Shown piece after piece: positions 1,908 through 60,528 of a stretch of DNA of 64,000 bases. The notes under the pieces are model-generated. The model saw nothing but the letters and a program-made list of their open reading frames with translations, had not been told where the DNA came from and ran no database searches. How positions within the stretch are numbered: position 1 is the stretch's first letter; each line of letters starts with the position of its first letter. Position numbers and translations under genes: made by a program. The DNA comes from a virus, in IMG/VR virus record IMGVR_UViG_3300006028_000002, positions 24,064 to 88,063 of that record, one strand, 5' to 3'.

Positions 1908-1913
1908 TGGACT

Positions 1914-2186
1914 TCACGACGCCTTCCTGCGAGCCGGAGCCCTGCGCGTGCGGGTGCTGGCGGTGTGGATCCGTCGAATCGGTTTCCGAACGGGAACCCA
2001 TCCGAGCATGTACCAGGCCACCACGATGACTTCGATCAACGCGGCGATCAGCCGCATGTAATGGTTGCCAGTCCAGAGGGAAAACGGAACGGCCATGTTG
2101 GAAGCAATGGCGATATCGAACCAGATGGAAGGCATCGCCCGGCGCGTGGTGATCTTGCGGCGCAGCCTGTTGGCGATCTTGTTCAC
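1914..2186 (-). CDS. Small membrane protein
   Basis: 90 aa with a GTG start at 2186, chosen because AGGAG lies eight bases upstream and the leftward promoter lies just before it. A hydrophobic stretch around residues 46-66 (LIAALIEVIVVAWYMLGWV) predicts one or two membrane segments; both ends are strongly basic (RRAPARRKAS at the C-terminus). First gene of the leftward operon. Function unknown. Confidence 0.7.
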   Translation of the reverse strand: MNKIANRLRRKITTRRAMPSIWFDIAIASNMAVPFSLWTGNHYMRLIAALIEVIVVAWYMLGWVPVRKPIRRIHTASTRTRRAPARRKAS

Positions 2187-2288
2187 TGTCTTGCTCCTGA
2201 CTGAGCAGGTGCCGCCCACCGCATACCCCGGGAGAGTCTGGTTGGGGCCTTGCTGGTGGGGGGCGCTACGTTGTTGCCTGACATCATC

Positions 2289-2317
2289 AGTATGGCCTTG
2301 CGCACGCACGTTGTCAA
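2289..2317 (-). promoter_or_regulatory. Leftward promoter, TTGACA-N17-CATACT
   Basis: On the reverse strand -35 TTGACA (2317-2312) and -10 CATACT (2294-2289) are separated by 17 bases. The 23 bases ending just after the -35 (2333-2311 reversed) are identical to those at 6345-6367, and both start sites are followed by TGTCAGGCAA. This matched pair implies one regulator controls leftward and rightward transcription. It serves the membrane protein, HNH and helicase genes. Confidence 0.75.
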
Positions 2318-2337
2318 GAGGTACTGACGAGCTGGTC

Positions 2338-2664
2338 TCAGCCATCCCTGGACCTCATCTGATCGGGAAGGTTGCGGAGCAGATGCCCTCCGCCGAGGAT
2401 TCGGATCGCGAGCGCGGCTGGTCGTAGTTTCTTGCCGGTGGTGCCGCAGTACCCGCAGTGCTCACCGAAGTTCTGACGAGCCTTATCCCAGTTCCGCCCC
2501 TTGTCACAGTGCTTGCACGGGCGTAGCGGGCGCCACGTCACCTCCATAAACCAGATCATCACCACGGCCGGCACGAGCAGGATGAGATGCGCCGCCACGC
2601 CGATGCGTGCGCCCAGCGACAGCACCGCCATGAGCACCGCACCGCTCAGTATCAGGTACCTCAC
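2338..2664 (-). CDS. Membrane protein with zinc-ribbon tail
   Basis: 108 aa, GTG 2664 with a near-perfect AGGAGG five bases upstream. Two hydrophobic helices fill residues 3-42, followed by CKHCDKG and CGYCGTT, two CxxC knuckles spaced as in a zinc ribbon. The C-terminus is basic and probably cytoplasmic. It lies between the repeat array and the leftward promoter, so it is likely read from the translocase transcript. Family not recognised. Confidence 0.72.
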   Translation of the reverse strand: MRYLILSGAVLMAVLSLGARIGVAAHLILLVPAVVMIWFMEVTWRPLRPCKHCDKGRNWDKARQNFGEHCGYCGTTGKKLRPAALAIRILGGGHLLRNLPDQMRSRDG

Positions 2665-2703
2665 GAGGGCCTCCTGTTACCTTGCGCGGGCCTCGAACGC
2701 AGG

Positions 2704-2860
2704 GGCACTCCGGGGGCACTCCGGAGATCGTTAAACCCGCTCCGGCGTAGCGCCTCCGGAGTGCCTAGAGCGCGAGGGCACTCCGGCCCGTAGCGCCCGT
2801 GACCAGCAGGTTTGTCGAGGGCACTCCGGCCGGAGTGGGGTGCGGAGTGGGGTGCGGAGC
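2704..2860. repeat. Iteron-like array of GGCACTCCGG
   Basis: Five exact copies of a 10-mer in about 126 bp: GGCACTCCGG at 2704-2713, 2715-2724, 2777-2786 and 2820-2829, and its complement CCGGAGTGCC at 2756-2765. The copy at 2820 abuts an inverted half copy (CCGGAGTG), followed by GTGCGGAG-type degenerate copies to 2860. No reading frame fits well here. It follows the translocase stop directly. Candidate roles are a replication origin, a partition site or a DNA site for the adjacent FtsK/TraB-like motor. Confidence 0.8.
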
Positions 2861-2866
2861 GGGGCA

Positions 2867-4960: not shown

Positions 4961-4981
4961 GGCATATCCGGTGTAGTGATC

Positions 4982-5006
4982 GGGTTTAGCCGTGTAGTCT
5001 AAACCC
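4982..5006. promoter_or_regulatory. Inverted repeat operator in divergent region
   Basis: GGGTTTAG (4982-4989) and CTAAACCC (4999-5006) form a perfect 8-bp inverted repeat with a 9-base spacer, in the 105-bp gap between the translocase and the rightward gene at 5066. Position suggests an operator controlling one or both divergent genes. The integrase control region has a similar N9-spaced repeat with different arms. Confidence 0.6.
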
Positions 5007-5065
5007 CGGATCTATGACCGTGAATCCGGATCAGCACTCAACTACTGGTTTTCTAGGAGGATTCC

Positions 5066-5542
5066 ATGCCAGGCAACCCGAGACGGCCCGGCTCACCCCC
5101 GGCGCGAGCACTACCCCCGCCACCGCAACCACCGCCCCGGACCGATCCGCCGGCACCCAGCAACGGAGGAAACGGGACCAATGGTGAGCCGCTCGGCAAC
5201 ACGATCCAGCCTGAGTGGATCTACACGGAGGGAATGACCGCAGCCGAGGCCCTACAGTTCGTGCTGGGTGACGCGGTAACGGGCAACAACCTGGCAGACG
5301 GCGCGGCTGCGATGGCCAGAATCGCCGAGTGGCTGCGGTTGATTCCGGCGCTCCGGTCAGTGATCTTGCACCTGATGTTCAATGATTATGTACGCCGGGG
5401 GGATCGCCGGCCCGAGCACCAGCGCAACAACTGGGCGGAGGTAGCCCGCATGGCTAGGCTGCCCTATGCCACCGCCTATAAGTACGCCCACCGGGTGGAA
5501 TGCTACGACACCATCCCCGGGGACGACGATGACCAGCAATAG
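5066..5542 (+). CDS. Pro-rich early protein, unknown
   Basis: 158 aa, ATG 5066 with AGGAGG upstream. Residues 5-36 are Pro/Arg-rich and disordered. The remainder is helical, ending in a possible DNA-binding helix pair (WAEVARMARLPYATAYKYAHR, shown here as positions about 121-141) and an acidic GDDDDQQ tail. It is divergent from the translocase and shares its control region, so it may be a regulator of that operon, but this is inference. Confidence 0.7.
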   Translation: MPGNPRRPGSPPARALPPPPQPPPRTDPPAPSNGGNGTNGEPLGNTIQPEWIYTEGMTAAEALQFVLGDAVTGNNLADGAAAMARIAEWLRLIPALRSVILHLMFNDYVRRGDRRPEHQRNNWAEVARMARLPYATAYKYAHRVECYDTIPGDDDDQQ

Positions 5543-5545
5543 GAA

Positions 5546-5581
5546 GACGGGCCCCGAGGCTGCGCGCGCTCAGAGCCCGTC
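5546..5581 (+). terminator. Hairpin after gene 5066, possible terminator
   Basis: GACGGGC (5546-5552) pairs with GCCCGTC (5575-5581) directly after the stop codon. No T-run follows, so it may be a weak or factor-dependent terminator. The rest of the 258-bp gap to 5801 holds TGTCAGGCAA at 5640-5649 and the promoter at 5713. Confidence 0.4.
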
Positions 5582-5712
5582 CCGTCACGGTAGGCGGAGA
5601 TGAGGGGCTACCTACCGGGTGTCCCCAGACCGTCCAAGATGTCAGGCAAGGGAGGTTTCCAGGGACGGCCCTAGTCTAGCAGGCCCGTCAGCTCAGCGAT
5701 TCTCTATGGAAT

Positions 5713-5742
5713 TTGACAACGGCTAGGCCAGGGGTCCATTAT
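5713..5742 (+). promoter_or_regulatory. Promoter TTGACA-N18-CATTAT for lsr2
   Basis: -35 TTGACA at 5713-5718 and -10 CATTAT at 5737-5742 with an 18-base spacer. The predicted start lies about 50 bases before the Lsr2 gene, whose ribosome binding site is GGGAGG. Upstream at 5640 is TGTCAGGCAA, the same decamer that follows the two paired promoters at 2289 and 6361. Confidence 0.6.
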
Positions 5743-5800
5743 CGCGGGCGACATAGACCCGCGACATTAAATCATTTGACTCAAGGGAGGAACTACCTCG

Positions 5801-6277
5801 ATGGCAACCAAGACCTACACCATCATGCACGATGACCTGGACGGCACGGCGGAAAGCGACACCAACCCGGTGAGCACCGTGGAATTTGCGCTGGACGGGC
5901 AGGACTACGAGATCGACCTGGGTGGCGGGAATGCAGCCAACCTGCGCTCGATGCTGGCCCCCTTTGTCGCTGCCGCGCGCAAGGCCACCGCTAAGACAGC
6001 CACTACCGCCGCGAAGGCCACCCGGGGGACGGCTACCGCCAAGCCCGACCGGGAGCAAAATGCCGCGATCCGCACCTGGGCGCGCAGCCGGGGTGCCACG
6101 ATTAGCGAGCGCGGCCGGATCCCGGCTGAAGTCACTGAGGCATATCACAAGGGTGGGGAGGCAGCCGAGCAGGCATTGCAGGTTTACATTGCCGGCCAAC
6201 AGGCTCGCCTCAATGCCCAGCTGACGCAGGGGGCCAATGGCCAGACCGCCCAGGTACCAGTGGCGGCCGGCGTGTGA
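5801..6277 (+). CDS. lsr2: Lsr2-like nucleoid-associated protein
   Basis: 158 aa, ATG 5801. The N-terminal oligomerisation domain is recognisable ([15 protein letters not shown], then [13 protein letters not shown], residues about 26-60). After an Ala/Thr/Lys linker comes the AT-hook-like DNA-binding domain [15 protein letters not shown] ... [10 protein letters not shown] (about 87-113). Lsr2 binds AT-rich DNA and silences foreign genes in actinobacteria; phage copies can act on host or prophage genes. The extra 36-residue Gln/Ala-rich tail is longer than in host Lsr2. It has its own promoter and terminator. Confidence 0.93.
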
Positions 6278-6299
6278 TCTTTTAACCAGGATCAGGGAG

Positions 6300-6335
6300 C
6301 CGGCCGTGGCCAGTGCGCTGCGGCCGGTTTCTTTT
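6300..6335 (+). terminator. Intrinsic terminator after lsr2
   Basis: CCGGCCG (6300-6306) pairs with CGGCCGG (6321-6327), followed at once by TTTCTTTTT (6328-6336). This is a textbook rho-independent terminator that isolates lsr2 from the next promoter only 26 bases on. Confidence 0.85.
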
Positions 6336-6360
6336 TGCTCCGGTAGCTCGTCAGTACCTC

Positions 6361-6389
6361 TTGACAAGGTGCGGGGAGGTGCGTAACGT
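6361..6389 (+). promoter_or_regulatory. Rightward promoter TTGACA-N17-TAACGT
   Basis: -35 TTGACA (6361-6366), 17-base spacer, -10 TAACGT (6384-6389). The sequence 6345-6367 is repeated exactly, inverted, at 2333-2311, and TGTCAGGCAA follows both. It should drive the long rightward early operon beginning at 6433. Confidence 0.78.
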
Positions 6390-6432
6390 CAGCAGTGTCA
6401 GGCAAGCAAGAACCGCCCAGGAGATGATTTCA

Positions 6433-6744
6433 ATGATCACCACTAAGGTAAAGCAACTGACCGCCATGAACATCAAAGCCCTGCGCGCAATTTCTCACGA
6501 CGCCGGCATGCACATCACGTTCGGCAAGACCTACGTCATCTTCGAGGCAGCTCCCTTAGGCGCCCTCATAGCCGTCGAATCCGCCATGACCGTTGTCGCT
6601 CAAACCGAGGGCATCAACTCCACCTACAACTCGCTGCGTGCTGTGCAGCGTAAACTGGTCAGCGCCGCACCCTACCGGATCGAGGAGTTTGCCGGCGTCC
6701 GAGGCGTTACGAAGCTCACTGATTACGTCCAGATCGCCCGTTGA
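6433..6744 (+). CDS. Early protein of unknown function
   Basis: 103 aa. ATG 6433 is preferred because AGGAG lies nine bases upstream; an in-frame ATG at 6424 touches the same site. Mixed alpha/beta composition, no membrane segment or motif recognised. First gene after the strong promoter at 6361, so it should be abundantly expressed early. Confidence 0.7.
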   Translation: MITTKVKQLTAMNIKALRAISHDAGMHITFGKTYVIFEAAPLGALIAVESAMTVVAQTEGINSTYNSLRAVQRKLVSAAPYRIEEFAGVRGVTKLTDYVQIAR

Positions 6745-11591: not shown

Positions 11592-12758
11592 CTAGGGCTG
11601 GTACATCCGGCCGCTGTTGATCCAACCCCGGGCCCGTGGCCAGCGCGTCGCCAGATGCAGCACGGTGCGCTGCCGCGCTCGATCCACCCGATTCTGCGGG
11701 GTCATGAAACGCATGGTGGCGGTCACGTCGCGCTGGTCACGCAGCAATGCCGGGATCCGTTGGGTGGTGTAGCTGCGCAGAATCTCGGGCGACATATCAC
11801 CGGTGATCACCCGGGCCAGTCGCGGTGCCAGGCACGCTACGTCGGCAATACCTGAGTTGAGCCCGCGTGCCCCGAAAGGCGCTACCAGGTGCGCGGCGTC
11901 CCCGGCGAAAAACACACGCGGTCGGGTAGTGGGGTAGTGCAGTTGCGGGAGGAGCCGCTGGTGGAATCGGTAGACGGAGGACCACACGAGTCGGTACGGG
12001 ATCGAGCCGAACAACTGATCCAGCTTGACGCGCGCCAAGGTGTCGATGACTTCCGGGTCGATACCGCGTCCCAGCTGCCAGTCAACTCGCCAGATGTTGC
12101 TGGGTTGGGGATGGATGAGCACGGTGGACCCCGGATGGCATGGGTGGTCGAAATGGAATCGCGGTTCAGCTGGCCAGTCGACTGCGGCACGCACGTCGGT
12201 GATGAGGAACTGATCGGGGTAGGAGGCCCCTGGAAACGGCAGGCGCATTGCCTCGCGCATCGTGGAACGGCACCCATCGGCGGCCACCACGTAGCGGAAG
12301 TTACAGGTACGCAGTGAAGGATCGCCGGTATCGACGGCCAGCGTCACCGAGGCATCATCCACGCCGAGCCCGACCACCCGGCATCTCCAGCACAGCTCAA
12401 TGAGTTCGGATGCCTCTGCCGCATCGAGCAGCAACGTCTCCAGCGCACTCTGCGGGTAGTTGGTCCACAGTGGCAGCTCACCCGGCGCCGGCTCGGGCAG
12501 GATCAGGGTGTGCACCTCGGCCTCGCGGTAGAAGGTGCGCCGTACCCGCCACGCAACGCCGCCCCCCACGATGAATGACGTCACCCCCAACGGTTCCCAC
12601 GTCGTCAGGGCCGAGCGGTGCAGCGCGATGGCTCGGGAACCCACGCACCCCCGCTCGCCGGCATCCAGCACGGTGCTGGGCACCCCGCGGCGGGCCAGCT
12701 CCAGCGCCAGCGTCAACCCGACCGGACCTGCGCCGACAATGCCCACGGGTGCGCTCAC
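11592..12758 (-). CDS. FAD-dependent aromatic-ring-type monooxygenase
   Basis: 388 aa, GTG 12758. Group A flavoprotein hydroxylase features in order: dinucleotide-binding GAGPVG (residues 9-14), the DG motif VVAADG (157-162), and the second FAD motif AGDAAH (285-290) followed by PFGARGLNSGIADV. Family members hydroxylate phenols or polyketides with NAD(P)H and oxygen. It lacks the C-terminal thioredoxin-like domain of pentachlorophenol-hydroxylase types, and PLP-free composition matches the 370-400-residue subgroup. It is divergent from the haloperoxidase-like gene. Its presence in a phage suggests a lysogen trait; substrate unknown. Confidence 0.9.
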   Translation of the reverse strand: MSAPVGIVGAGPVGLTLALELARRGVPSTVLDAGERGCVGSRAIALHRSALTTWEPLGVTSFIVGGGVAWRVRRTFYREAEVHTLILPEPAPGELPLWTNYPQSALETLLLDAAEASELIELCWRCRVVGLGVDDASVTLAVDTGDPSLRTCNFRYVVAADGCRSTMREAMRLPFPGASYPDQFLITDVRAAVDWPAEPRFHFDHPCHPGSTVLIHPQPSNIWRVDWQLGRGIDPEVIDTLARVKLDQLFGSIPYRLVWSSVYRFHQRLLPQLHYPTTRPRVFFAGDAAHLVAPFGARGLNSGIADVACLAPRLARVITGDMSPEILRSYTTQRIPALLRDQRDVTATMRFMTPQNRVDRARQRTVLHLATRWPRARGWINSGRMYQP

Positions 12759-12945: not shown

Positions 12946-14277
12946 ATGGCTTACCGTCGCAGCTTTCGCATCGCCGCAGCCCTGCTGGCGTGTCTGGGAC
13001 TACTGTCTTGCACCCCGGCGAACGTGCGCAGCTACCGACCGGCCGCCGCAGCGGCCCCCACATTCGATCACGTTCTGTACTGGGATTCGGTGCTGCTCGA
13101 TGCCTTCCGCCGAGCCGGCGGTCCCCCCACCACGCTCACCCGAGCCGCCGCGATCATGCATGTGGCCATGTACGATGCCGCCAATTCGATCACTCCGATC
13201 GGCACCCCGTACCTGGCCCGTTATCCGGGTGGGGGCAGTCTGGACGCCGAGATGGACCGGGCGGCCTACGACAGTTTGCGCGGCGTGTTCCCCGACCAGG
13301 ACATGCTCACCCCCTATCTGCTCGCCCAGCCGGCCAACTCGACAACCCTGCTGGCCAGTGACAGCCCGGGTGCGCGCTCGGCTGCCGCGGTGCTTGCCAA
13401 CCGATTCGATGACGGCGGCAACGCGCCCATGACCTATGCCGCGGTGCAGTCCCCCGGGCATTGGCGACCCACCGGATCCGGCGAGGCAGCCAGTCCCGAG
13501 TGGGGCAGCGTCAAACCGTGGACCATGACCGCTGCCGACCAGTTCCGGCCACCCGATCCGCTCGGGTACAGCGATGGTGCGGCGATGCTGCGCAGCAAGG
13601 CGTACGCCGATCAGGTACGCGAGGTATCAAGTCTAGGTCGGTGGAACTCAACTACTCGAACGGCTGACCAGACCAACATCGCGCGGTTTTGGGCGGAGGA
13701 TGTCGACGGCACCGAGAAGCCCCCCGGCCAGCTGTTGGCTTTTACCCAGATCATCGCGCGTAATCACGGCTTGACCGAGGCACAGAACGCCCGGCTGTTC
13801 GCGCTGACATCAATGGGCCTGGCCGATGCGGCGATCACCGCCTGGCAGCGCAAGTACTACTCGCCGCTCAACGTATGGCGGCCCGAGACGGCGATCCAGC
13901 AGGCCGACCTTGACGACAATCCGGCCACCGTCGCCGACCGGGACTGGCACCCGCTATCGAGCGATGCCAATGGCGTGCCGTTCACCCCACCTTTCCCCAG
14001 CTACACGTCCGGGCATTCCACCATGGGCGGTGCCTGGTCAGCGGTGATGGACGGTTTCTTTGGTACCGACCGGGATAGTTTCATCGGCACCAGCGATGAC
14101 ATCCACTGCATTGGCTGCACCCGGGTGTACGGAAGCTACACGCAGGCCGGATTCGAGGACGCCATCAGCCGGGTCTTCAACGGCGTTCATTACAAAATGG
14201 ATTGTATCGAGGGTTACAATTCTGGGCGCAAGGTGGGGGCGTGGACGGTCAATCGCTACCTGCTGCCAGCTCGTTAG
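12946..14277 (+). CDS. Exported vanadium-haloperoxidase-like PAP2 lipoprotein
   Basis: 443 aa, ATG 12946 with GGGAGGGGG upstream. An N-terminal signal with lipobox LLSC predicts lipidation at Cys22. The vanadate/phosphate pocket is visible: Lys303 with Arg312-Pro313 (NVWRPETAI), SGH at 355-357 (PSYTSGHST), and SRxxxGxHxxxD with Arg409, His415 and Asp419. The Lys-to-Arg spacing is eight residues rather than the classic six, so ligand geometry may differ. The family includes vanadium chloro/bromoperoxidases and acid phosphatases; activity on the cell surface is inferred. Divergent from the FAD enzyme. Confidence 0.88.
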   Translation: MAYRRSFRIAAALLACLGLLSCTPANVRSYRPAAAAAPTFDHVLYWDSVLLDAFRRAGGPPTTLTRAAAIMHVAMYDAANSITPIGTPYLARYPGGGSLDAEMDRAAYDSLRGVFPDQDMLTPYLLAQPANSTTLLASDSPGARSAAAVLANRFDDGGNAPMTYAAVQSPGHWRPTGSGEAASPEWGSVKPWTMTAADQFRPPDPLGYSDGAAMLRSKAYADQVREVSSLGRWNSTTRTADQTNIARFWAEDVDGTEKPPGQLLAFTQIIARNHGLTEAQNARLFALTSMGLADAAITAWQRKYYSPLNVWRPETAIQQADLDDNPATVADRDWHPLSSDANGVPFTPPFPSYTSGHSTMGGAWSAVMDGFFGTDRDSFIGTSDDIHCIGCTRVYGSYTQAGFEDAISRVFNGVHYKMDCIEGYNSGRKVGAWTVNRYLLPAR

Positions 14278-18318: not shown

Positions 18319-19617
18319 CTACCCGGTGGGGGCCTTCACCCGGGGTCGCAGTACCAGCAGGGCATCATCCCGCGGGCCCCGGGTCATGATGTAGCGGCCA
18401 GGGGGGATGGCCGGGGCCCCTGGTGGGCGAGCCCAGTCCTCAAACCGCTGGAGGGTTTGCGCCAGCACCAGCGTGCCGATCATCAACGCCATGTCTTTGC
18501 CGATGCAGGACCGCTTACCCGAGCCGAACGGCTGCCACGTGGCCCGCTGGCCAGCGCTGAGCGAAGCGCGGAACCGGGTCGGGTCAAACGTCTCCGGATC
18601 CTGCCACGCCCGTGGATTGCGCCCGAGCGCGTGCGGCACCAGGAAAATCTGATCCCCGGGCCGCAGCTCGAATTCACCGAGCTGGGTGGCTGCGGCGACG
18701 TTGCGGAAAAACGCCGGGAATGACGGGTGCAGTCGCAGGGTCTCAGTCAGCACCGCCGCGGTGAACTCCAGCCGGGGCAACTGCTCGACGCGCGGTGGTT
18801 CGGTGCCGCAGACCTCGGCCACCTCCCAGTACAGGTCGTTGCGCAGCCCGGGGTCGGCTGCCAGGTACAGGCACGCCCAGGCCATCGCGGACGAACTCGA
18901 CTCGTACCCGCCGAGCAGCAGGATCACCACCTGGTCGTGGATCTGCTCGGCGCTCAGAGGGGGCTCGGCGGTGTACATCCGCCACAACAGATCCTCGCCC
19001 GGACCCTGCTCCCAGCGCTCGGCCAGCAGTCGCGCCACCTCGGCATGCAGCGCAGCCGTAGCGCGTCGGTATTCCCGGGCCGCCGGCAGCCACAGGGGCA
19101 GAAACACTCGATCGGCCATGGTGCCGAACACCGGTTGCGTCAGCTCAATGAGCCGGTGCAGCCGGGCGCCGGAGCCGAACAGGTGCCGCAGCAACACCTC
19201 CAGATTGAGCGCCCGCAGCTCGGTGGCCAGCGGGATGGGTAGTGCGGTGTTCCAGGTGTCCATCCGGGCGCCCCAGAGCTCTACAGAGGACTCGACGGCG
19301 CCGCGCAGCCCCTCCCGGGTAAACGAGGGATTCATCAACCCCCGGATGCGTCGCCATTCGCCCGGGTCGTTGGTGGTGAAGATCGCGTGTGCGCCCACCG
19401 GCTGGCGAATCGTGGCGTAGATGGGGCCGCCTTTGTCGAACGCCTCCGCGGAATACCCGGTGAGCACTTGGCGGTACAGGCCCGGGTCGGAGACCACCCA
19501 CCAGGACCGCCGGCCCGGAATCGGCAGCCGGGCGATGCCGCCCCCGACGATGGCCGCCGCGGTGAGGTACTCGGTGGGATCCCGGTACCGCAGGCTTTTG
19601 GCCAGCTCGCGCAGCAT
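18319..19617 (-). CDS. Cytochrome P450 monooxygenase
   Basis: 432 aa, ATG 19617. I-helix LLLGGYESSSS (233-243; Gly-Tyr-Glu-Ser in place of the usual AGxET), ExxR Glu292-Arg295, PERF-like region DPTRF (345-349) and heme loop FGSGKRSCIG with ligand Cys371. Soluble bacterial type, no membrane anchor, no fused reductase, so it needs host ferredoxin. Substrate unknown; Thr to Ser at the oxygen-activating position is conservative. It lies only 24 bases past a T-rich intrinsic terminator, which implies attenuation or read-through control. P450 genes are rare in phages. Confidence 0.93.
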   Translation of the reverse strand: MLRELAKSLRYRDPTEYLTAAAIVGGGIARLPIPGRRSWWVVSDPGLYRQVLTGYSAEAFDKGGPIYATIRQPVGAHAIFTTNDPGEWRRIRGLMNPSFTREGLRGAVESSVELWGARMDTWNTALPIPLATELRALNLEVLLRHLFGSGARLHRLIELTQPVFGTMADRVFLPLWLPAAREYRRATAALHAEVARLLAERWEQGPGEDLLWRMYTAEPPLSAEQIHDQVVILLLGGYESSSSAMAWACLYLAADPGLRNDLYWEVAEVCGTEPPRVEQLPRLEFTAAVLTETLRLHPSFPAFFRNVAAATQLGEFELRPGDQIFLVPHALGRNPRAWQDPETFDPTRFRASLSAGQRATWQPFGSGKRSCIGKDMALMIGTLVLAQTLQRFEDWARPPGAPAIPPGRYIMTRGPRDDALLVLRPRVKAPTG

Positions 19618-49194: not shown

Positions 49195-49724
49195 GACGGA
49201 TTGCCTTTCTTGTCGGGGAAATCCACACCCGGGACGGGTGCCGCATCCGGTGGGAATTTGTGCGGTTCGCCCTCGGTGAGATCGCCCGCGCTCGGGGCCG
49301 CCTCCGGGGGGTGTGTCAACTCGGGTGTCTGCACCTGGGAAGGGGGAACAGGCGCCGCGTCCGGTGGTTCCATGCCCGGAATCCGATAATCCGGTTTCTG
49401 ATCATCTGATTCTTTTTCCACGTATCCGCTGGTGGGATCATCGGGATCCGGTTTCGATCCCTCCGGTATATGCAACGGTGCCGGATTGTCCGCGTCGGTC
49501 CGTTCCTCATCCGCCGAGCTGTCCTCAGTTTTCGGGTGGGTCGACTGGAGAAAAGGATCATCATCAGAGGGTGTGGTGGGCACGTCGTCACTGTTGGCCA
49601 GCGGGGGCGCTTCCACGCCTTGTGCCGCGCGATGCACCGGGGCACCCGGTATAGCTCGAACCACCGGCACCCCGCGCCGGGTCACCCGCCGGGGTACGCG
49701 GCTACGCGTAGTGTGTGGCGCCAT
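49191..49724 (-). CDS. Arg-N/acidic-C protein A
   Basis: 177 aa, ATG 49724 after GGGGGG, overlapping the portal 3' end by 23 bases. SRVPRRVTRRGVPVVR start, then a long acidic, Pro-rich, disordered region with DDVPTTPSDDD. Largest member of the family; repeated DAAPVP near its end. Confidence 0.72.
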   Translation of the reverse strand: MAPHTTRSRVPRRVTRRGVPVVRAIPGAPVHRAAQGVEAPPLANSDDVPTTPSDDDPFLQSTHPKTEDSSADEERTDADNPAPLHIPEGSKPDPDDPTSGYVEKESDDQKPDYRIPGMEPPDAAPVPPSQVQTPELTHPPEAAPSAGDLTEGEPHKFPPDAAPVPGVDFPDKKGNPS

Positions 49725-50991
49725 TAGTCGCCCCCCGATCTCCCACCGCTGGATGGGTCGGCTTAAACGGTTCGGGCTTATCAGGCGACATATCAGGGGG
49801 TTTCCCCATCGGCATCGGGCCACGGGTCGGCCAGAACCGCTCGAACTCGGCGATCTGCGCATCCGTCATCGGCGGCAGATCTTCCATCAACCGGGCCTCG
49901 GACGGGGCCAGCACCCGGGATTGGATGCGGTGCGCCACCACTTCCGCGCGAGTCGCCGGGTCCATGCGCAACAGCGAGTCGGTGTCGAGACGCACAAACT
50001 GCCTGTTAGGCAACAGTTTGTTGAGCGAGTTCTCTCGGCGCCGGATCGCCGGGCCTAGGCTCATAATAAGTAGTTGCAGGTTGCGTTGCACCACATTGGC
50101 GTACGTCACGCTACTGCCAGAAATAGCCGCGTCAATCAGATCGGCCGGGCAGTCCAAGAATCGGGCGATCTCGGCCAGCCCGATGCTGCGCGCCTCCAGC
50201 CATTCCATGCCGGTCTGTTCGGCCTGGATGAGTTTGTATTCCCAGTCTTTACCGGTGACCAGCACATCGCCGGAGCGAATGCTTTCCTTAGCGCGGGCCT
50301 TGATTTCCTCGGCCTGTAAATTGGTCAGAGTCGGCAGCACCGTATTCTGCATATGGCCCCGCGGAATGCCACCACTCGTAAACCAGGAAATGGCGAAATC
50401 CTGTATAGAGAGGTGTTCCCCGATGCACCATGCCGCGTACATCAAGGGGGACAGACCTAAATGAAAACCGGGCACCGTGTATTGCTTCTCATGCCAGATC
50501 TGATCCGGTCGGTATGATTTACCACGGATCATGTATTCCACAAGTACGTTATCGATGACGTTGACGCTCACCCAGGCCAGAGGCACCAGCTCAATCTCAG
50601 CAGGCAGGCCATAACCATTGCGCTGGGTGATGATCCCTATCGTGTTCCCCGCGCGGTCCAGGTCGAATTGCGTTCCCCACATAAACTCCAGATAGTCGAC
50701 CTCCTGGCCGCCCGGGTTGAGGATCACCGGGGGTGTCTCCACCTTGACGTGGGGCAAACCGTATTGCGCGCGGCGGAACACATCCACCGGCATCGTACTG
50801 ATCAGGTTAGCGCGCAGCCGCAAACACGCCCACACCGCCGAATGCCGTAGCGCGGATTCTGAGTTAATCATGTGGCCGGGGGCGATCTGCATACCCAGCC
50901 GATGCGGTATCACGTCACTGGCAGAAGCACCAGGAAACTCGCCCCAGTACGGTCCCTCGATGTTCGCGGTGCGTTTGAAAAACAGGCCCAC
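49702..50991 (-). CDS. Portal protein, HK97 type
   Basis: 429 aa, GTG 50991. LRHSAVWACLRLRANLISTM, LNPGGQEVDYLEFMWG and LIDAAISGSSVTYANVVQ are typical of HK97-like portals. Position between terminase and protease confirms. The Pro-rich C-terminus may be disordered. Confidence 0.92.
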   Translation of the reverse strand: MGLFFKRTANIEGPYWGEFPGASASDVIPHRLGMQIAPGHMINSESALRHSAVWACLRLRANLISTMPVDVFRRAQYGLPHVKVETPPVILNPGGQEVDYLEFMWGTQFDLDRAGNTIGIITQRNGYGLPAEIELVPLAWVSVNVIDNVLVEYMIRGKSYRPDQIWHEKQYTVPGFHLGLSPLMYAAWCIGEHLSIQDFAISWFTSGGIPRGHMQNTVLPTLTNLQAEEIKARAKESIRSGDVLVTGKDWEYKLIQAEQTGMEWLEARSIGLAEIARFLDCPADLIDAAISGSSVTYANVVQRNLQLLIMSLGPAIRRRENSLNKLLPNRQFVRLDTDSLLRMDPATRAEVVAHRIQSRVLAPSEARLMEDLPPMTDAQIAEFERFWPTRGPMPMGKPPDMSPDKPEPFKPTHPAVGDRGATNGATHYA

Positions 50992-51016: not shown

Positions 51017-51373
51017 CTACTCTTTGGCCAGCCAGGCGAATCGCCACCACGTGCGCACGATCACCGAGGGCACCTGCGGGATGTCTTTCGATCGAGTAAC
51101 CGGTGGTCGGCCCGGTGGCGCGGGTTGTGTCGCGCCAGCGCGTCCACCGAGCCAGTCCCCGAGCCAGCCGGCGGCCAGCAGCACCGCCCCGGCCATCACC
51201 AGAAACCCGGGCCAGCGCACCAGCTCAAATGCGGCGATCCCGAGCCCGGCGGCGATCGCCACCACCGCGGCCAGCTCCAGACACAGGATCACGATCTCGT
51301 GCACCAGGGGGGACAGCGTTGGCCGACCCTGGGTGGTGCGGCCCGGATGCAGGTCAGTGACAGCCGTGGTCAA
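51017..51373 (-). CDS. Membrane protein between terminase and portal
   Basis: 118 aa, TTG 51373 overlapping the terminase stop, GGAGAG upstream. Two helices (EIVILCLELAAVVAIAAGLG, FLVMAGAVLLAAGWLG) then a basic tail. Unusual inside a head operon; contains CGTGCGCACG at 51050. Function unknown. Confidence 0.68.
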   Translation of the reverse strand: MTTAVTDLHPGRTTQGRPTLSPLVHEIVILCLELAAVVAIAAGLGIAAFELVRWPGFLVMAGAVLLAAGWLGDWLGGRAGATQPAPPGRPPVTRSKDIPQVPSVIVRTWWRFAWLAKE

Positions 51374-52863
51374 TGCACACTCTCCAGCACGTTGTAAGTG
51401 GGTGCGGCGTAACGCACCAGGCCGTACAGCGCCTCAGCAACTACCGTGACCGGGGTGATGTCCGCTGCGCTGACCATGCGACCGAACGCCCAGCCACCGT
51501 CGCCCACATTGCGCTTACGCGCCGCCCTGATTGCCGAGGTGACGCATTCCTGGCCGAGGTGGCGTAGTTGATCCCGGGTCGACACCGCTTTGAGCAGATG
51601 CCCGCACGCCTGGCTCAACTCAGCGCCTTTGATCGGGGTGATGCCGGGATCCCCGGTGGGGGTGACCCCGATGCCGGCTTTGATCAGTGCGGGCAGTAGC
51701 GCGCCGGCCGGTCCGGAGGTGTCCACCATCCAGAGGGTGGGGCCCCACACCGCGTCCAGTTCTTTCGCGCGGGACACCATCCAGTCGATGCCCCGGCGGT
51801 GATCCAGCTGCCCGTCTTTGTTGGTGATCTCCACATGAGGGATCCGGTCGGCGCGATAGCCGGCGACCCCGATGGCCCCGCTGGTCAGTCCCTCGGCCAC
51901 GTCCAACGCGAACACGAGCCCGCCGCGGGGTTGGCTGTCCGGATCCACCAGGGACAGCCAGGCGCCCAGGTGGATGATCGCCATGCCGCCCGGGTCATCC
52001 CAGGCGCAGAGCACCTCGCGGTCAAACTCGGCGGCATCCATGCTGCGCAGTGCGCGGCGCATCGTGTTGAAAGTGACTCGATCGCCCAATGCGGGGTTGG
52101 CCTGCGCCCAGGCTATGGGCATCTGCCGCACGTAATCGGGTGCGTCGTGGAAAGCGTCATCTACTGACCACTCATAGTAGGCCAGTTCCGGCTCTTGATT
52201 GATGCCGCGCATCCGAACCTGACGCAGTGCGGTGGAATTCGCCATGCCCGCCATCGACACGTACCATATCTGCCAATTACTGCGGGCAAACATAATAGGC
52301 ATCATGGCGCCGACCATTTCATTGGTAAGCGCGAAAGCCTCATCGAAAAATATGATGTCATATCCGGCCCAACCACGGGCCGCAGAGGATGTGCGAGCAA
52401 CAAAATCTATTCGAGCGCCGTTTTTGAGGCTGATGCTCTGTTCCTCATTGCTCATGCGGATCTGTTTAACCTCTTGATCGAGGCCCGGCACCGACTCGAT
52501 GCGCCACTGGATGCGCTCGCGGATCTTGCGGCTGGTGGCCATGAGGTGCGAGGTGTAGACCATTTTGTACTGCCGTAGAAACAGCCCGTTGAGGGTGGCG
52601 ATCTCCACACAGGCGCCTTTGCCGCTCTGTCTGCCCACCACCAGACCGACCTCGGGGGCCGTCCAGTTGCCTTGCTCATCCATACCCAGTGCACCGTCCA
52701 GCACCCGGCGCTGCCACGGGTCGGCAATCAATCCGGAGAGCTCGGCCAGCTCACAGGCTTCCGGGCCGGATGTCTTGAGGTAGGGGGGCACCAGTTCAAT
52801 TCGCGGTGCCTGGTCACCCCGCAGATTCGCCCATCTGTCGGCGCCTGCGCTCGCGGAGTTCAT
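51370..52863 (-). CDS. Terminase large subunit
   Basis: 497 aa, ATG 52863 (a TTG precedes it). ATPase: Walker A-like GRQSGKG (77-83), Walker B IIFFDEA (169-175). RNase-H-like nuclease acidic residues include Asp320 (FALDVAEG) and Asp380 (WMVDTSGP). It translocates and cuts DNA during packaging into the HK97 head. Confidence 0.93.
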   Translation of the reverse strand: MNSASAGADRWANLRGDQAPRIELVPPYLKTSGPEACELAELSGLIADPWQRRVLDGALGMDEQGNWTAPEVGLVVGRQSGKGACVEIATLNGLFLRQYKMVYTSHLMATSRKIRERIQWRIESVPGLDQEVKQIRMSNEEQSISLKNGARIDFVARTSSAARGWAGYDIIFFDEAFALTNEMVGAMMPIMFARSNWQIWYVSMAGMANSTALRQVRMRGINQEPELAYYEWSVDDAFHDAPDYVRQMPIAWAQANPALGDRVTFNTMRRALRSMDAAEFDREVLCAWDDPGGMAIIHLGAWLSLVDPDSQPRGGLVFALDVAEGLTSGAIGVAGYRADRIPHVEITNKDGQLDHRRGIDWMVSRAKELDAVWGPTLWMVDTSGPAGALLPALIKAGIGVTPTGDPGITPIKGAELSQACGHLLKAVSTRDQLRHLGQECVTSAIRAARKRNVGDGGWAFGRMVSAADITPVTVVAEALYGLVRYAAPTYNVLESVH

Positions 52864-53107
52864 CAAGTGGACTCCGTTCCGGCATGACGTCCGGTGCCGG
52901 CGGCATCCTCAGCCGTTCCCAGCGGTCGGTGAGCTTGCGCAGATCGGCCAGCGCAAGGCGTACCTGGGACGCGGCCGGGTTATGACCCTCATCGAACCGC
53001 TGGGCGCAGCGCCGGCCCATCTCGATGAGACCGCACGCACTGTTGCGCACATCCGGGGGGAGCTGGGCTACCTCGCGCTCGAAAGCATCTGCCAGACTAT
53101 CGTCCAT
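52814..53107 (-). CDS. Terminase small subunit-like protein
   Basis: 97 aa, ATG 53107 with AGGAG ten bases upstream; overlaps the large subunit start by 50 bases. Short helical protein (ALADLRKLTDRWERLRM) with basic C-terminus, at the terS position. Assignment is mainly positional. Confidence 0.62.
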   Translation of the reverse strand: MDDSLADAFEREVAQLPPDVRNSACGLIEMGRRCAQRFDEGHNPAASQVRLALADLRKLTDRWERLRMPPAPDVMPERSPLDELRERRRRQMGESAG

Positions 53108-53356: not shown

Positions 53357-53788
53357 TTACGTATCTTTTGCCAACTTGGCGATCAGTTCATCCTGCGCAA
53401 ACAAATGTGCCTGAAGTTGCAAAGACTCGTGCAACAATGCTTCTGCATCATTAAACGTATCTAAAGCTCGCTTATCCGCTGCCGATGCCTGAACGGACTG
53501 ACCCACCAAAATGATTGACAGCAGGACCAATTGCAGGAAAGTCTGAGCGATCCACTGCACGATACCGAGCACACCCTGATGAATAGCCCCCGGTAAACCC
53601 ACCAACGCAATGGCACCGAACAGATACGCGCAGGTCATGGAGCCCACGAAACCTGTAATCTTCACCGCCAACCGAGCATTACACCTCGCATAAGCGGTAG
53701 AGGTGTCGTACTGGTCATTTACCCGCGCCGGGTCTCGGTGCCGGCGTCGAGCGCGCTGCGGGTGCGGCGTGTAGGTAAAGAGACTCAT
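53357..53788 (-). CDS. Two-helix membrane protein with amphipathic tail
   Basis: 143 aa, start 53788. Basic N-terminus with RRRHRD, two membrane helices (residues about 45-70 and 76-98), then an acidic helix HESLQLQAHLFAQDELIAKL. Resembles a DUF1003-like pattern only loosely. Divergent from the PLP enzyme gene with 35 bp between starts. Confidence 0.65.
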   Translation of the reverse strand: MSLFTYTPHPQRARRRHRDPARVNDQYDTSTAYARCNARLAVKITGFVGSMTCAYLFGAIALVGLPGAIHQGVLGIVQWIAQTFLQLVLLSIILVGQSVQASAADKRALDTFNDAEALLHESLQLQAHLFAQDELIAKLAKDT

Positions 53789-53823: not shown

Positions 53824-55218
53824 ATGAGATTCCCCCGCGAGCACGCTGATTATCACCCCGACATCATTGGACCGCTGCGCGTCATCGAGTTTTCCCGGCT
53901 CGGTGATGAAGTCTATCTCGACTACACGGGCGCCGCACTCTATCCGGAGTCACTGGTCATGGATCACTTGTGGGATCTGCGCGGTAACGTATATGGCAAT
54001 CCGCATTCCGACTCACCGGCCAGCCAACGCGCTACCGAGATAATGTCCACGGCACGCGCTGCGGTACTGCGATTCTTTAACGCCGACCCCGATGAATACA
54101 CCGTGGTATTCACCGCGAATGCCACAGCGGCCATGCAACTGGTGGGCTTATCATATCCGTTCCAGCCAGACAGTCTGTTTCTCTACACCGCCGATGTACA
54201 CAATTCGGCGCTCGGGTTGCGGGAACTAGCTCGGGACATCAAATGCACGGTAGGTTACCTGCCGCTGCAATCGGATCTGCGGGTCTCCGATACCGAGGCG
54301 ATGCTGACCCTCAACTCCCATGCGGGTGGGCTGTTCACATACCCGGCGCAATGCAATTTCAGCGGAGTACACCATCCCCTGTCGTGGATCAACGCGGCAC
54401 ACAATCTGGGCTGGCGGGTGCTGCTGGACGCTGCTGCGTTCGTGCCCACCAACCCGCTGGATCTGCGCAGGTTCCCGGCTGATTACGTCGCGGTCAGCTT
54501 TTATAAGATCTTCGGTTATCCCAGCGGCATCGGGGCTCTGATCGCTCGTCGCGAGGCGCTGGAGGAGTTGCAGCAACCCTGGCACGCCGGGGGCAGCACC
54601 CGGGCCGCCTCGGTGGCCGGCGACTGGTACCACCTGGCCGCTGGAGCGGACGCGTTCGAGCACGGCACCGTCAACTATCTGGCCGCCGCCGCCGTCACGC
54701 GAGGGCTGGAGTACATCAGCGCACTCGGGCTGGCCCAGATCCATGACCGGGTGCAGCTGTTGACCGGCTGGACGCTGGCTGAGCTGGCGAACCTGCATCA
54801 CAAGGGGGGCGAGCCCCTCATCCGGCTCTACGGTCCGCTCGGGATCGAGCAACGCGGGGCTGCCATCACTTTTAATCTGCTCGATCCCTCCGGCGCACCG
54901 GTTGACGAGCGGATCGTGGCAGCCCGGGCGCGCGAGCAGCACATCTCGCTGCGCACTGGATGCTTCTGTGCGCCCGGTGCCGCCGAGACGGCGTTTGCGC
55001 TCGATCCGGCCGATCTGGTGGCCGCGGGGGAGCTGCCGGCGGACGCGCCCATGGACGCCTATCTGGACACCCTGGGCATGCCCACCGGGGGCGCCATCCG
55101 GATCAGCTACGGGCTGGCCAGCAACGCCGCAGACGCCGAGCGTTTTCTGGAGTTCGCAGCCACGTTCGCCGATGCGCGGCCAAGCGAGGACAACCTACCG
55201 GCCCGAGTACATTGCTAA
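53824..55218 (+). CDS. Class V aminotransferase, molybdenum-cofactor-sulfurase-like
   Basis: 464 aa, ATG 53824. YLDYTGAALYPESLV (31-45), NVYGNPHSDS (55-64), PLP-contacting Asp202 (LLDAAAF), Schiff-base Lys228 (SFYKIFGYPSGIG) and the persulfide Cys380 in LRTGCFCAPG (377-384). These match the N-terminal desulfurase domain of MOCOS/Mo-cofactor sulfurases more than IscS/SufS. No C-terminal MOSC domain. It should take sulfur from cysteine; the acceptor is unknown. It reads against the virion operon, just outside terS. Confidence 0.87.
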   Translation: MRFPREHADYHPDIIGPLRVIEFSRLGDEVYLDYTGAALYPESLVMDHLWDLRGNVYGNPHSDSPASQRATEIMSTARAAVLRFFNADPDEYTVVFTANATAAMQLVGLSYPFQPDSLFLYTADVHNSALGLRELARDIKCTVGYLPLQSDLRVSDTEAMLTLNSHAGGLFTYPAQCNFSGVHHPLSWINAAHNLGWRVLLDAAAFVPTNPLDLRRFPADYVAVSFYKIFGYPSGIGALIARREALEELQQPWHAGGSTRAASVAGDWYHLAAGADAFEHGTVNYLAAAAVTRGLEYISALGLAQIHDRVQLLTGWTLAELANLHHKGGEPLIRLYGPLGIEQRGAAITFNLLDPSGAPVDERIVAARAREQHISLRTGCFCAPGAAETAFALDPADLVAAGELPADAPMDAYLDTLGMPTGGAIRISYGLASNAADAERFLEFAATFADARPSEDNLPARVHC

Positions 55219-55296: not shown

Positions 55297-55449
55297 CTAG
55301 CGGGTGCACACCACCGTGTAGCCGGCATCGTTGAGCACCCGCAACACATGCCAGGCCAGATCCGCGCTGATGCCATGTGTCAACGTATTTTTGCTAACGC
55401 CCTCGGTCAGCGCGCGAACCACGTCATCTGAGTCGGCGGCTTTCGTCAT
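55297..55449 (-). CDS. 50-aa late-type protein
   Basis: ATG 55449 overlapping the upstream stop; TAG 55297. MTKAADSDDVVRALTEGVS then LAWHVLRVLNDAGY, a helical pattern frequent in small actinophage proteins. Unknown. Confidence 0.62.
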   Translation of the reverse strand: MTKAADSDDVVRALTEGVSKNTLTHGISADLAWHVLRVLNDAGYTVVCTR

Positions 55450-55682
55450 CCCGTCCACCGTTCCCTCCCATCGGCGTGCCGGATACGCAGGCCGAATCCA
55501 GTATGCGTGACTGGCGCGCTCACCCGCTCCGTGATCGGTCCCGGGGTCTCACCCTCTGGCTGAGGTTTAGGCTTGCCCTCCGGTTTGGGCTCGAGGGCAA
55601 CCGGTACCGGAGGTGGCGCCGAGTTACCCAGCACCTCCAGCGACACCGGGACAAGCCCGAACAATGACAGGGTGATTTTCAT
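55446..55682 (-). CDS. Small protein with hydrophobic start and Lys/Pro/Glu linker
   Basis: 78 aa, ATG 55682 (coupled). MKITLSLFGLVPVSLEVLG is a common opening of small actinophage proteins; then KPEGKPKPQPEGETPG linker and GFGLRIRHADGRE. Possibly membrane-associated. Confidence 0.68.
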   Translation of the reverse strand: MKITLSLFGLVPVSLEVLGNSAPPPVPVALEPKPEGKPKPQPEGETPGPITERVSAPVTHTGFGLRIRHADGRERWTG

Positions 55683-55837
55683 CAGACCACCAGCACGGCA
55701 AAACAGAATGCCAGGATAAAGAGCACCACGGCCAAGATAATCGATATCATGGATGGTGTCGGACCCGGCAACAAATGTGCTGCGGCGAAAAACACCAACC
55801 CCAGCGCGATAAGCGCCGGATAAAGCGCAGCGTGCAT
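55682..55837 (-). CDS. 51-aa two-helix membrane protein
   Basis: ATG 55837 with AGGAGG seven bases upstream; TGA overlaps the next ATG. Two helices: LIALGLVFFAAAHLL and ISIILAVVLFILAFCFAVLV. Unknown. Confidence 0.65.
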   Translation of the reverse strand: MHAALYPALIALGLVFFAAAHLLPGPTPSMISIILAVVLFILAFCFAVLVV

Positions 55838-55849
55838 GCTCACCGCCTC

Positions 55850-55966
55850 CTAACCGAATATCCCGTGCAGAATGCCCAGCATAGCTGCGGTGAATAGCAC
55901 GAAAACAAGAATCAAGAGCATCGCCTGGCACAACTCACGGCACCAGTCAAACCAGCGCGACTCCAT
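55850..55966 (-). CDS. 38-aa single-helix membrane protein
   Basis: ATG 55966 overlaps the upstream stop (TGATG); TAG 55850. MESRWFDWCRELCQAM then LLILVFVLFTAAMLGIL. Real by coupling and composition. Confidence 0.6.
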   Translation of the reverse strand: MESRWFDWCRELCQAMLLILVFVLFTAAMLGILHGIFG

Positions 55967-58413: not shown

Positions 58414-58764
58414 CTACCAGCTGCGGGACGCGAGGCCCCGGGTCTCCCAGATCGGGCGGACGCGCCGGGTCGGATGCCAACCCAGCCTGCGGCGCAGATC
58501 ATTCGACAGCCGCACATTGCAGCCGAAATGACAGGGGGTGTGATTCGCCGGGTCCATGGGGTCGCCGCCGATCCACAACTCGACAATGTGGTGCACGGTC
58601 GGGGCCATCGGATGCCGCGGGTTGATCTTACGCAGGCCGTAGTCGATGCGACCCCCGCAGCCATAACAGGGCGTGGCATTGAGCTCGCCGGCCTCCAGAC
58701 AGGCATTCTGCGCTTTGTACCAGCGGTGACCTTTGCGCCCGGCCGAGGGATACGCGGTAGCCAT
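58414..58764 (-). CDS. Terminase-associated HNH endonuclease
   Basis: 116 aa, ATG 58764. CYGCGGRIDYG, PTVHHIVELWIGGDPMDP and CHFGCNVRLSND form the HNH domain with structural zinc, the type that sits upstream of terminase genes and helps cos cleavage. Here it heads the leftward late region. Preceded by a 280-bp non-coding region that may contain cos or the late promoter. Confidence 0.87.
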   Translation of the reverse strand: MATAYPSAGRKGHRWYKAQNACLEAGELNATPCYGCGGRIDYGLRKINPRHPMAPTVHHIVELWIGGDPMDPANHTPCHFGCNVRLSNDLRRRLGWHPTRRVRPIWETRGLASRSW

Positions 58765-59045: not shown

Positions 59046-59441
59046 TCACGTAGCGTCATCAGGGCCAGAGTCGTAGCTGGTGGTGCTCTCAGTATCCAGG
59101 TGGTTGTGATCTGCGGAGTTGCCCGAGTTGGACACACCAGGCACCTGTACCTGGTCGGCAGCGTCGTTGGTGAAGCTGTAGCTGAACTCGCGGCGCGCCA
59201 TGGGGCGCCCATCACCCAGCAGTAGCGCCGCAGCAGCGGCACCAGCACCCAGGCCGGCTGACTGCCAGTCCACCGACTCCTGCTCATGCGTACCAGGACG
59301 CGCCTCGCCGGTACGGCCCGCGGCGACTGCTGCTGACGCGCTCGGCAGCGTGGGATCGACGTCACTAGGTGTGGTCGGTGGGTGTCCGCCGCGCCGCATC
59401 GGCGTGCGCACGGTGGATCGGTTTGCCCGGGTGTATCGCAT
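59046..59441 (-). CDS. Arg-N/acidic-C protein O
   Basis: 131 aa, ATG 59441. MRYTRANRSTVRTPMRRGG start, PPTTPSDVD, then HEQESVDWQSAGLGAGAAAA and an acidic tail. The PTTPS and PGTHExES strings recur in protein P at 61330. Divergent from the integrase. Confidence 0.72.
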   Translation of the reverse strand: MRYTRANRSTVRTPMRRGGHPPTTPSDVDPTLPSASAAVAAGRTGEARPGTHEQESVDWQSAGLGAGAAAAALLLGDGRPMARREFSYSFTNDAADQVQVPGVSNSGNSADHNHLDTESTTSYDSGPDDAT

Positions 59442-59502
59442 TGCGATCACGCCTTTCCGCTGTATGACTATGCAGCGCGCAGTGCGCACCCCACCAGGAA
59501 TC

Positions 59503-59534
59503 CACGATACTGTAGACATATCGTGTGCTAGAAT
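59503..59534 (+). promoter_or_regulatory. Integrase promoter/operator inverted repeat
   Basis: CACGATA (59503-59509) and TATCGTG (59519-59525) flank a 9-base spacer, followed by TAGAAT (59529-59534), a -10-like box eight bases before the integrase ATG. A regulator bound here could block integrase expression. Confidence 0.55.
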
Positions 59535-59541
59535 TTGTCAC

Positions 59542-60528
59542 ATGGAGATCCTCCCGGCACCCATGCCGGACCACGAAACCACGCGCCTGTCCACCATTGA
59601 GACCGCGGCTAAAGCTCTACTCAATTCAGACCTAGCCGAGAACAGCCGCCGAGCGTTCGCCACCGACTGGCGCCACTGGCAACAATTTTGCGCAAACGAA
59701 AACATCGACCCGCTATGCGTATCCTCTGGCCTGCTGGTTGCGTTCGTAACCTGTCTTGCACACGACACGCCAGCCCGCAAAGCTCAATCGCCCGCCACTC
59801 TCCAGAGACGGCTAGCAGGAGTACTGCACGGATGGAAGCAAGCCGGGTGCACCATTCCACACGCAATTAGCGCCGACGCGCTCCGCATCATCCGCTCCTA
59901 CGAGCGAAACCTACGTCGAGAAAACCTCCCCACCGGACGCGGTAGCGCTCCGGCGATCACCATTGATGACCTACGCAAAATCTCTGCGACTTGTCCCAGC
60001 TCACTCGCGGGGATGCGCGACCGAGCATTAATTTTGCTTGGTTTCGCTATCGGAGCTCGCAGATCTGAGTTGGCCGCGCTGCTCGTCACCGATATCAAAG
60101 TCACAGACGAGGGATTAGTCGTAACCCTCCGAGACTCCAAAACCGGATATCGACAACCCCACGTACTGCCTGGCACCGATGGGCTGACCTGTCCCGTACG
60201 CGCCTGGCTAGCTTGGCGCTTCGCTGCGGAGCTTACTGAAGGGTCTGCATTTTGGATGGTGAACAAACACGGAGATCTTGTCCGACCACTGACCCCGCAG
60301 GCAGTCGGCAACATCGTCACTCAAGCGGGCAACCGGGCAGGATGCGCCGCGCGGTTCACTGGGCACTCGCTACGAGCTGGACTGGCCACCGAGGCGCGCA
60401 AGGCCGGGCACGACCGCTGGGCCATCGCAGACCAGGGCGGATGGCAACGCAACTCAGCCGTGCTCGACAGGTACATACAGATCGTAGATCGCTGGTCCGA
60501 CAACGCACTCAAGGGGATAGGTCTCTAA
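59542..60528 (+). CDS. int: Tyrosine recombinase (integrase)
   Basis: 328 aa; ATG 59542 chosen over upstream starts because the promoter-like box and SAM-like core domain begin here. N-terminal core-binding domain (residues 15-125). Catalytic set: Arg173 (GARRSEL), Lys200 (DSKTGYR), His275/Arg278 (HSLRAG), Trp301 in the second His position, and Tyr311 (VLDRYI). Expected to integrate the phage at a host att site; attP cannot be located by eye. Confidence 0.93.
   Translation: MEILPAPMPDHETTRLSTIETAAKALLNSDLAENSRRAFATDWRHWQQFCANENIDPLCVSSGLLVAFVTCLAHDTPARKAQSPATLQRRLAGVLHGWKQAGCTIPHAISADALRIIRSYERNLRRENLPTGRGSAPAITIDDLRKISATCPSSLAGMRDRALILLGFAIGARRSELAALLVTDIKVTDEGLVVTLRDSKTGYRQPHVLPGTDGLTCPVRAWLAWRFAAELTEGSAFWMVNKHGDLVRPLTPQAVGNIVTQAGNRAGCAARFTGHSLRAGLATEARKAGHDRWAIADQGGWQRNSAVLDRYIQIVDRWSDNALKGIGL

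Follow-up and report, generated by a model that had tools for sequence, protein, structure and literature searches.

A putative stand-alone cysteine desulfurase carried as cargo by an actinobacteriophage-type virus

Described desulfurases and the phage-borne gene

Cysteine desulfurases supply nearly all sulfur-containing cofactors. Those of group II usually act together with a partner protein, according to PMC8931425. The desulfurase module of CaMES, a metallopterin-dependent ergothioneine synthase, possesses besides its loop Cys a near-terminal one (Cys1135, the module ending at 1136), which is essential for sulfur transfer, as described in PMC9516567. With regard to ABA3, the PLP lysine is given as Lys271 (PMC8301430) and the loop Cys as Cys430 (PMC3916724). 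Viral cysteine desulfurases have already been described from metagenomes (PMC7863781), and the phage setting by itself is not new.

The window analysed here is a stretch of 64,000 nucleotides, namely, bases 24064-88063 of an IMG/VR virus record of 88,063 bases (IMGVR_UViG_3300006028_000002). At 53824-55218 on the + strand, it carries a gene for a class V PLP-dependent enzyme of 464 residues, putatively of the stand-alone cysteine desulfurase type, with an ATG start, a TAA stop and no interruption. Aminotran_5 is its sole Pfam match (residues 30-440, 1.4e-46, 159.6 bits versus a gathering threshold of 21.5). A preliminary description of the locus had reported an intact class V enzyme of this kind amid phage genes of the opposite strand, devoid of MOSC, and the Pfam scan of the 464-residue protein bears out both points. 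A PHROGs search returned one match, to a family lacking an assigned function. The genes on both sides lie on the - strand, and neither has a family match in Pfam or PHROGs: the divergent neighbour (53357-53788, 143 residues), whose start is separated from that of the enzyme gene by 35 bp, and the gene on the other side (55446-55931, 161 residues). No promoter-like site was found beside the enzyme gene in a consensus scan, some promoter types being outside its coverage, and two terminator-like sites were counted versus 1.7 in shuffled sequences.

The phage backbone includes a portal (49702-50991, -), a terminase large subunit TerL (51370-52866, -; phrog_9, 1.3e-53), an S78-type protease, an FtsK-like protein, a primase-polymerase, helicases, an endolysin and a tyrosine integrase identified with Pfam/PHROGs (59200-60528, +), together with a match to an HK97-type capsid under the cut-off. 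An HNH gene is located at 58414-58764 (-). This backbone is of the actinobacteriophage type, and the best-ranked TerL matches among named phages, at 33-36% identity, are mostly from Rhodococcus, Mycobacterium and Arthrobacter phages. The gene at 5801-6277 (+) codes by eye for an Lsr2-like protein, and the Lsr2 dimerisation and DNA-binding domains occur once in the Pfam table of 70 phage ORFs, which does not give the member's name. This pair presumably indicates an actinobacterial host.

A sister viral contig of 27.6 kb (IMGVR_UViG_3300036856_000054; loci L086/L087) harbours a copy of the enzyme with 63% identity, in the same place and on the same strand. Around this copy, TerL (72%), portal, protease, capsid and further genes share 40-82% identity with those of the window, and both enzymes start with MRFPREH and end with RVHC. 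Between window and sister, the NG86 method gives for the enzyme a dN of 0.31 and a dS of 1.56, a ratio of about 0.20 that is rough, dS being near saturation, and similar to that of TerL (dN 0.22, dS 1.15), the portal having a dN of 0.16 and a dS of 1.25; by this estimate, the ratio is that of a selected protein. No equivalent of the integrase is present in the sister contig, where the flanking genes sit close together. A third relative (L139) shares 70% identity in the portal and 58% in TerL, and no enzyme copy was found by tblastn within the 2.5 kb visible upstream of its terL. The same search of L139 and of loci L120-L137, most of them short or distant, gave no copy either. The gene is a phage-resident cargo (moron) gene, present in some relatives, absent in others and placed on the opposite strand; as it occurs in the window and the sister contig and is missing beside the terL of L139, it represents optional cargo kept by two phages. 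Since a related virus retains it at the same position, the enzyme is probably useful to the virus. As for other viruses, a single-sequence scan of viral contigs gave no close relative of the enzyme, and alignment-based scans returned the sister contig only; class V matches in annotated phages numbered 19, at 24-31% identity. The capsid scan likewise yielded the sister only, the portal scan the sister and L139, and the TerL scan 19 loci of which the sister was the sole close one.

Family, predicted fold and conserved residues

Bacterial homologues with 45-52% identity over almost the full length were collected at 82 loci, including the best 80 of 552 relatives, a homology which by these alignments is far beyond chance. 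The resulting 84-sequence set comprises the best 80 of 552 relatives confirmed in a profile scan of genome contigs, two loci from plasmid records, the sister copy and the query. The family is present in at least six of the 246 Actinomycetes sampled, a lower bound, since no more than six candidates were scored per genome. A tree of 70 rows was built from 50 family members and 20 other class V proteins of five of the same genomes. For the latter, 30 paralogue loci were considered, from which five lacking a profile match were left out and five were already present as family members; two rows labelled SufS were tested directly and both scored above the SufS cut-off. The family is split from the 20 other proteins by a branch of support 100, and stands separate from SufS, NifS and VC1184-type paralogues. 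The two phage copies pair at support 100, and their position relative to the actinobacterial clade is weak (82), in a tree that comes from a quick search, with no bootstrap and several long outgroup branches.

Twelve desulfurase-type models of NCBIfam matched the enzyme at E<=0.001, none of them reaching its cut-off. SufS came first with 132.8 bits versus 475.1, and the group I scores were 45 versus 643.2 for IscS and 38.8 versus 530.75 for NifS. The view that the enzyme is not an IscS is thus upheld by the score. The preliminary description had also given it a MOCOS-like character. In the 70-row tree, the family forms a clade separate from the SufS/NifS paralogues; the MOCOS label itself, which goes back to sequence motifs, is tentative. 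A DndA identity was set aside (36.2 versus a cut-off of 480, with no dnd family among 70 phage ORFs scanned with PADLOC), and so was EgtE, as TIGR04343 is missing from the 12 NCBIfam matches at E<=0.001. The enzyme belongs to a separate and apparently unstudied bacterial subfamily.

An AlphaFold2 model built from a 35-sequence alignment (pLDDT 90.3, pTM 0.91) predicts a SufS-like fold. All 50 Foldseek matches listed are cysteine desulfurases, at 18-25% identity, and the 50 VIA-align matches listed (cysteine desulfurases/SufS) have Z scores of 40.2-42.0 at 2.0-2.8 A over 375-406 residues. The NifS-like domain of MOCOS does not figure among the Foldseek and VIA-align matches listed, which says nothing about kinship.

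Lys228 (codon 54505-54507, +) aligns with the Lys of the S-G-H-K motif in SufS paralogues and is, by this alignment, the candidate Schiff-base lysine for PLP. The loop motif G-C-F-C holds Cys380 (54961-54963, +) and Cys382 (54967-54969, +). In the 84 sequences, with the best 80 of 552 relatives, Lys228, Cys382 and the spacing of 154 between them are kept in 84/84, and Cys380 in 83/84, the exception (L017) having Thr in its place while keeping Cys382. Lys228 and Cys380 are the residues that the preliminary description had named, and their identities hold. Its choice of Cys380 as the key cysteine has to be revised: Cys380 sits on a His of the SufS G-H-H-C motif, and it is Cys382, two residues later, that aligns with the Cys of this motif and with the catalytic Cys of SufS/Nfs2, falling on residue 384 of Arabidopsis Nfs2, mutated in a structure entry titled Nfs2 C384S. 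The 80 contig loci of the set had been found via motifs containing Lys228 or the Cys residues, and the bias was therefore checked. Loci matching the Cys motif only have Lys228 in 12/12 cases, and those matching the Lys motif only have Cys382 in 19/19 and Cys380 in 18/19. Among four further members found with the profile, all keep Lys228 and three have it together with both loop cysteines.

The active site departs from that of a plain SufS: Ala takes the place of Gln in the D-x-x-Q motif (D-A-A-A) in 83 of the 84 sequences, and Tyr rather than His precedes the PLP Lys in all 84, again with the best 80 of 552 relatives. The alignments place His126 on the second His of E-H-H, the counterpart of the PLP-stacking His being uncertain by one residue. 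Position 177 (codon 54352-54354, +) is Cys in the two phage copies only and Ser in the other 82 of this set with the best 80 of 552 relatives.

The changed D-A-A-A and Y-K residues would suit a class V lyase that acts on another substrate, in a small-molecule pathway with further phage cargo, a reading we regard as unlikely. The phage does possess candidate companions. The gene at 18319-19617 (-) codes for a cytochrome P450 (PF00067, 1.4e-50), with terpene-pathway P450s as the best NCBIfam matches, far under the cut-off. That at 11592-12758 (-) codes for an FAD_binding_3 monooxygenase of 388 residues (PF01494), for which the best NCBIfam model is a PRK08132-type FAD oxidoreductase (369.1 bits versus 416), and it adjoins a gene at 12946-14277 (+) for a protein of 443 residues with a C-terminal PAP2 domain (PF01569) and, by eye, a lipoprotein-like start. 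However, these genes lie 34-42 kb from that of the enzyme, and none of them is found in the sister contig, a weak point since the equivalent region is not reached there. In favour of this reading, one relative (L143, G181:C14), which retains Lys228, has G-D-F-H with Asp and His in place of both loop cysteines. Against it, Cys382 is present in 84/84 of the main set with its best 80 of 552 relatives, and in three of the four further members.

With regard to the desulfurase reading, a third cysteine deserves attention. Cys464 (codon 55213-55215, +) is the last residue of the protein, at the end of an R-x-x-Cys tail that abuts the stop codon in both phages and in all 16 actinobacterial sequences among the 84. 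Four more actinomycete members, found with the profile, served as an independent test: three of them end in the same way, the exception being L143, which brings the total to 19/20 actinobacterial members and 2/2 phages. As controls, a terminal Cys was found in 0/20 class V paralogues outside the family and in 3/82 called phage genes. Overall, Cys occupies the terminal column in 22/84 sequences, and the tail is missing from most non-actinobacterial members. Cys464 may thus represent a second persulfide station, and a relay from Cys382 to Cys464 is plausible because in CaMES a near-terminal Cys is needed for sulfur transfer. The joint loss of loop and terminal cysteines in L143, perhaps an enzyme of different activity, is as expected if these cysteines act together.

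Gene neighbourhoods, molybdenum and sulfur acceptors

The Pfam scan of phage ORFs (10 + 10 + 10 + 70 entries, a few appearing twice) recognised no protein of tRNA thiolation, no dnd or MOSC family and no sulfur acceptor, and PADLOC found no thiolation partner or dnd over 70 phage ORFs. In the 82 homologue loci, including the best 80 of 552 relatives, no neighbour recurs besides antisense shadows and generic ABC transporters. For the actinobacterial members, neighbours were scanned with Pfam at 13 of 15 loci, the other two having no gene call; 78 proteins were predicted, two very large ones were omitted, and among the remaining 76 (25 families listed), none beyond generic ABC/AAA occurs in more than 3/76.

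By the queries used, sulfur genes accompany the family gene at 2/82 loci and molybdenum genes at 2/82, again including the best 80 of 552 relatives. The former are L005 and L075. In both, a rhodanese-like gene lies upstream of the family gene, as do two membrane genes that look YeeE/YedE-like by eye. In Gemmatirosa (L005), these two membrane genes stand between a tandem rhodanese gene and the rhodanese-like gene, which overlaps the start of the family gene; the one YeeE/YedE-like protein tested from this locus had no PDB match. L075 has the pair, the rhodanese-like gene and, nearby, mobA. In L069 (5318-9020), a molybdenum-hydroxylase operon (Fer2_2, MoCoBD, FAD_binding_5) is directly downstream of the family gene. 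A similar operon guessed at L061 from gene sizes was ruled out, the gene being that of PEP carboxylase. As a side observation, locus L002 codes at 1344-6638 (-) for a protein of 1764 residues in which a Prim-Pol primase and a primase/helicase-like region are fused to a family A DNA polymerase.

Desulfurases generally feed nucleic-acid modification, and the phage enzyme could be the sulfur donor of such a pathway directed by the phage, either DNA phosphorothioation or tRNA thiolation. We consider this very improbable: the DndA score is 36.2 versus 480, and the search for DNA-sulfur or tRNA-thiolation partners, which the preliminary description had proposed, yielded no dnd, PP-loop, TusA-, ThiI- or MoaD-type family in the Pfam and PADLOC scans of phage ORFs. 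A partner supplied by the host is conceivable.

A link to molybdenum can be envisaged as a two-piece Moco sulfurase, in which the phage enzyme would charge a MOSC protein or a chaperone of the host and thereby mature the host's molybdenum enzymes. The G-C-F-C loop and S-F-Y-K motif of the phage enzyme appear to resemble those of MOCOS. The distance from Lys to loop Cys (154) is close to the 159 that follows from the residue numbers in the ABA3 papers. Furthermore, the molybdenum-hydroxylase operon of L069 (1/82 loci) and mobA of L075 accompany family genes, and PF02738 occurs in 13/15 hand-picked gene-bearing genomes. Against this, the enzyme is devoid of MOSC, and PF02738 is found in 3/6 gene-bearing Actinomycetes versus 173/240 others and is absent from Thermobifida fusca, which carries the family gene. 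PF00384, also tried as a molybdoenzyme marker, was dropped as uninformative at 245/246. By the PF02738 distribution, the family does not appear to depend on xanthine-oxidase-type enzymes, and a general role with them finds no support, host Mo enzymes having been one of the options named in the preliminary description; single lineages may use it so. The Moco reading of the phage enzyme is therefore weak, with no MOSC and half (3/6) of the gene-bearing Actinomycetes lacking xanthine-oxidase-family genes, and the two-piece sulfurase appears distinctly improbable. We found no report of a phage-borne molybdenum cofactor sulfurase in the open-access literature.

Proposed reaction and comparison with known systems

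We favour, with some confidence, the reading of the cargo gene as that of a PLP-dependent L-cysteine desulfurase with group-II (SufS) architecture and no fused MOSC, an activity suggested by sequence and model. In its favour are the family matches, the predicted fold, the conserved Lys228 and Cys382, the retention in two phages at a low dN/dS and the sulfur genes at L005 and L075; the altered active site, the mostly unrelated neighbourhoods and the lack of a recognised acceptor among the phage ORFs scanned weigh against it. The enzyme would presumably be dimeric, with Lys228 holding PLP. The Cys382 thiol would attack the cysteine-PLP adduct, yielding alanine and a persulfide on Cys382. In the actinobacterial/phage branch, the sulfane sulfur would then pass to a host sulfur acceptor, probably via the C-terminal Cys464, and could feed tRNA thiolation, Fe-S repair, reactive-sulfur pools or other general sulfur trafficking. 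A bolder proposal, which we put forward only tentatively, is that of an uncharacterised class of self-sufficient desulfurases in which the R-x-x-Cys tail would act as a built-in persulfide carrier and replace SufE/SufU-type partners; the actinobacteriophage version, with its additional Cys177, would set how much sulfane sulfur the infected cell is supplied with. A stand-alone subfamily with a conserved terminal Cys would offer a simple system for studying persulfide hand-over without SufE/SufU, and two diverged phages that keep the enzyme would provide a way to ask what phages gain by controlling host sulfur.

Compared with MOCOS/ABA3, whose NifS-like domain has a Lys-Cys spacing of 159 (ABA3, from the residue numbers in the papers) versus 154 here, the phage enzyme lacks the fused C-terminal MOSC, and its family shows no consistent molybdoenzyme link. 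The CaMES module, as described in PMC9516567, uses a near-terminal Cys for sulfur transfer, as the phage enzyme possibly does; however, it is likened there to NifS/IscS and is fused to a metallopterin domain, whereas the phage enzyme is stand-alone and group-II-like. The group-II enzymes SufS/CsdA (E. coli SufS, Arabidopsis Nfs2) have the fold, the PLP lysine and the position of the loop cysteine in common with it, but they share only about 18-25% identity in structural alignments and fall in another clade, the phage enzyme scoring far below the NCBIfam cut-offs. It differs from them further by its G-C-F-C loop, by Y-K in place of H-K and by Ala in place of the PLP Gln, and the actinobacterial and phage members by a longer C-terminus with a terminal Cys. 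The bacterial class V homologues, uncharacterised proteins of Allokutzneria, Thermobifida, Anaerolineae and others, share 45-52% identity and the invariant residues with the phage enzyme; they carry Ser177 and Asn383 in 82/82 cases, including the best 80 of 552 relatives, whereas both phages have Cys177 and Ala383.
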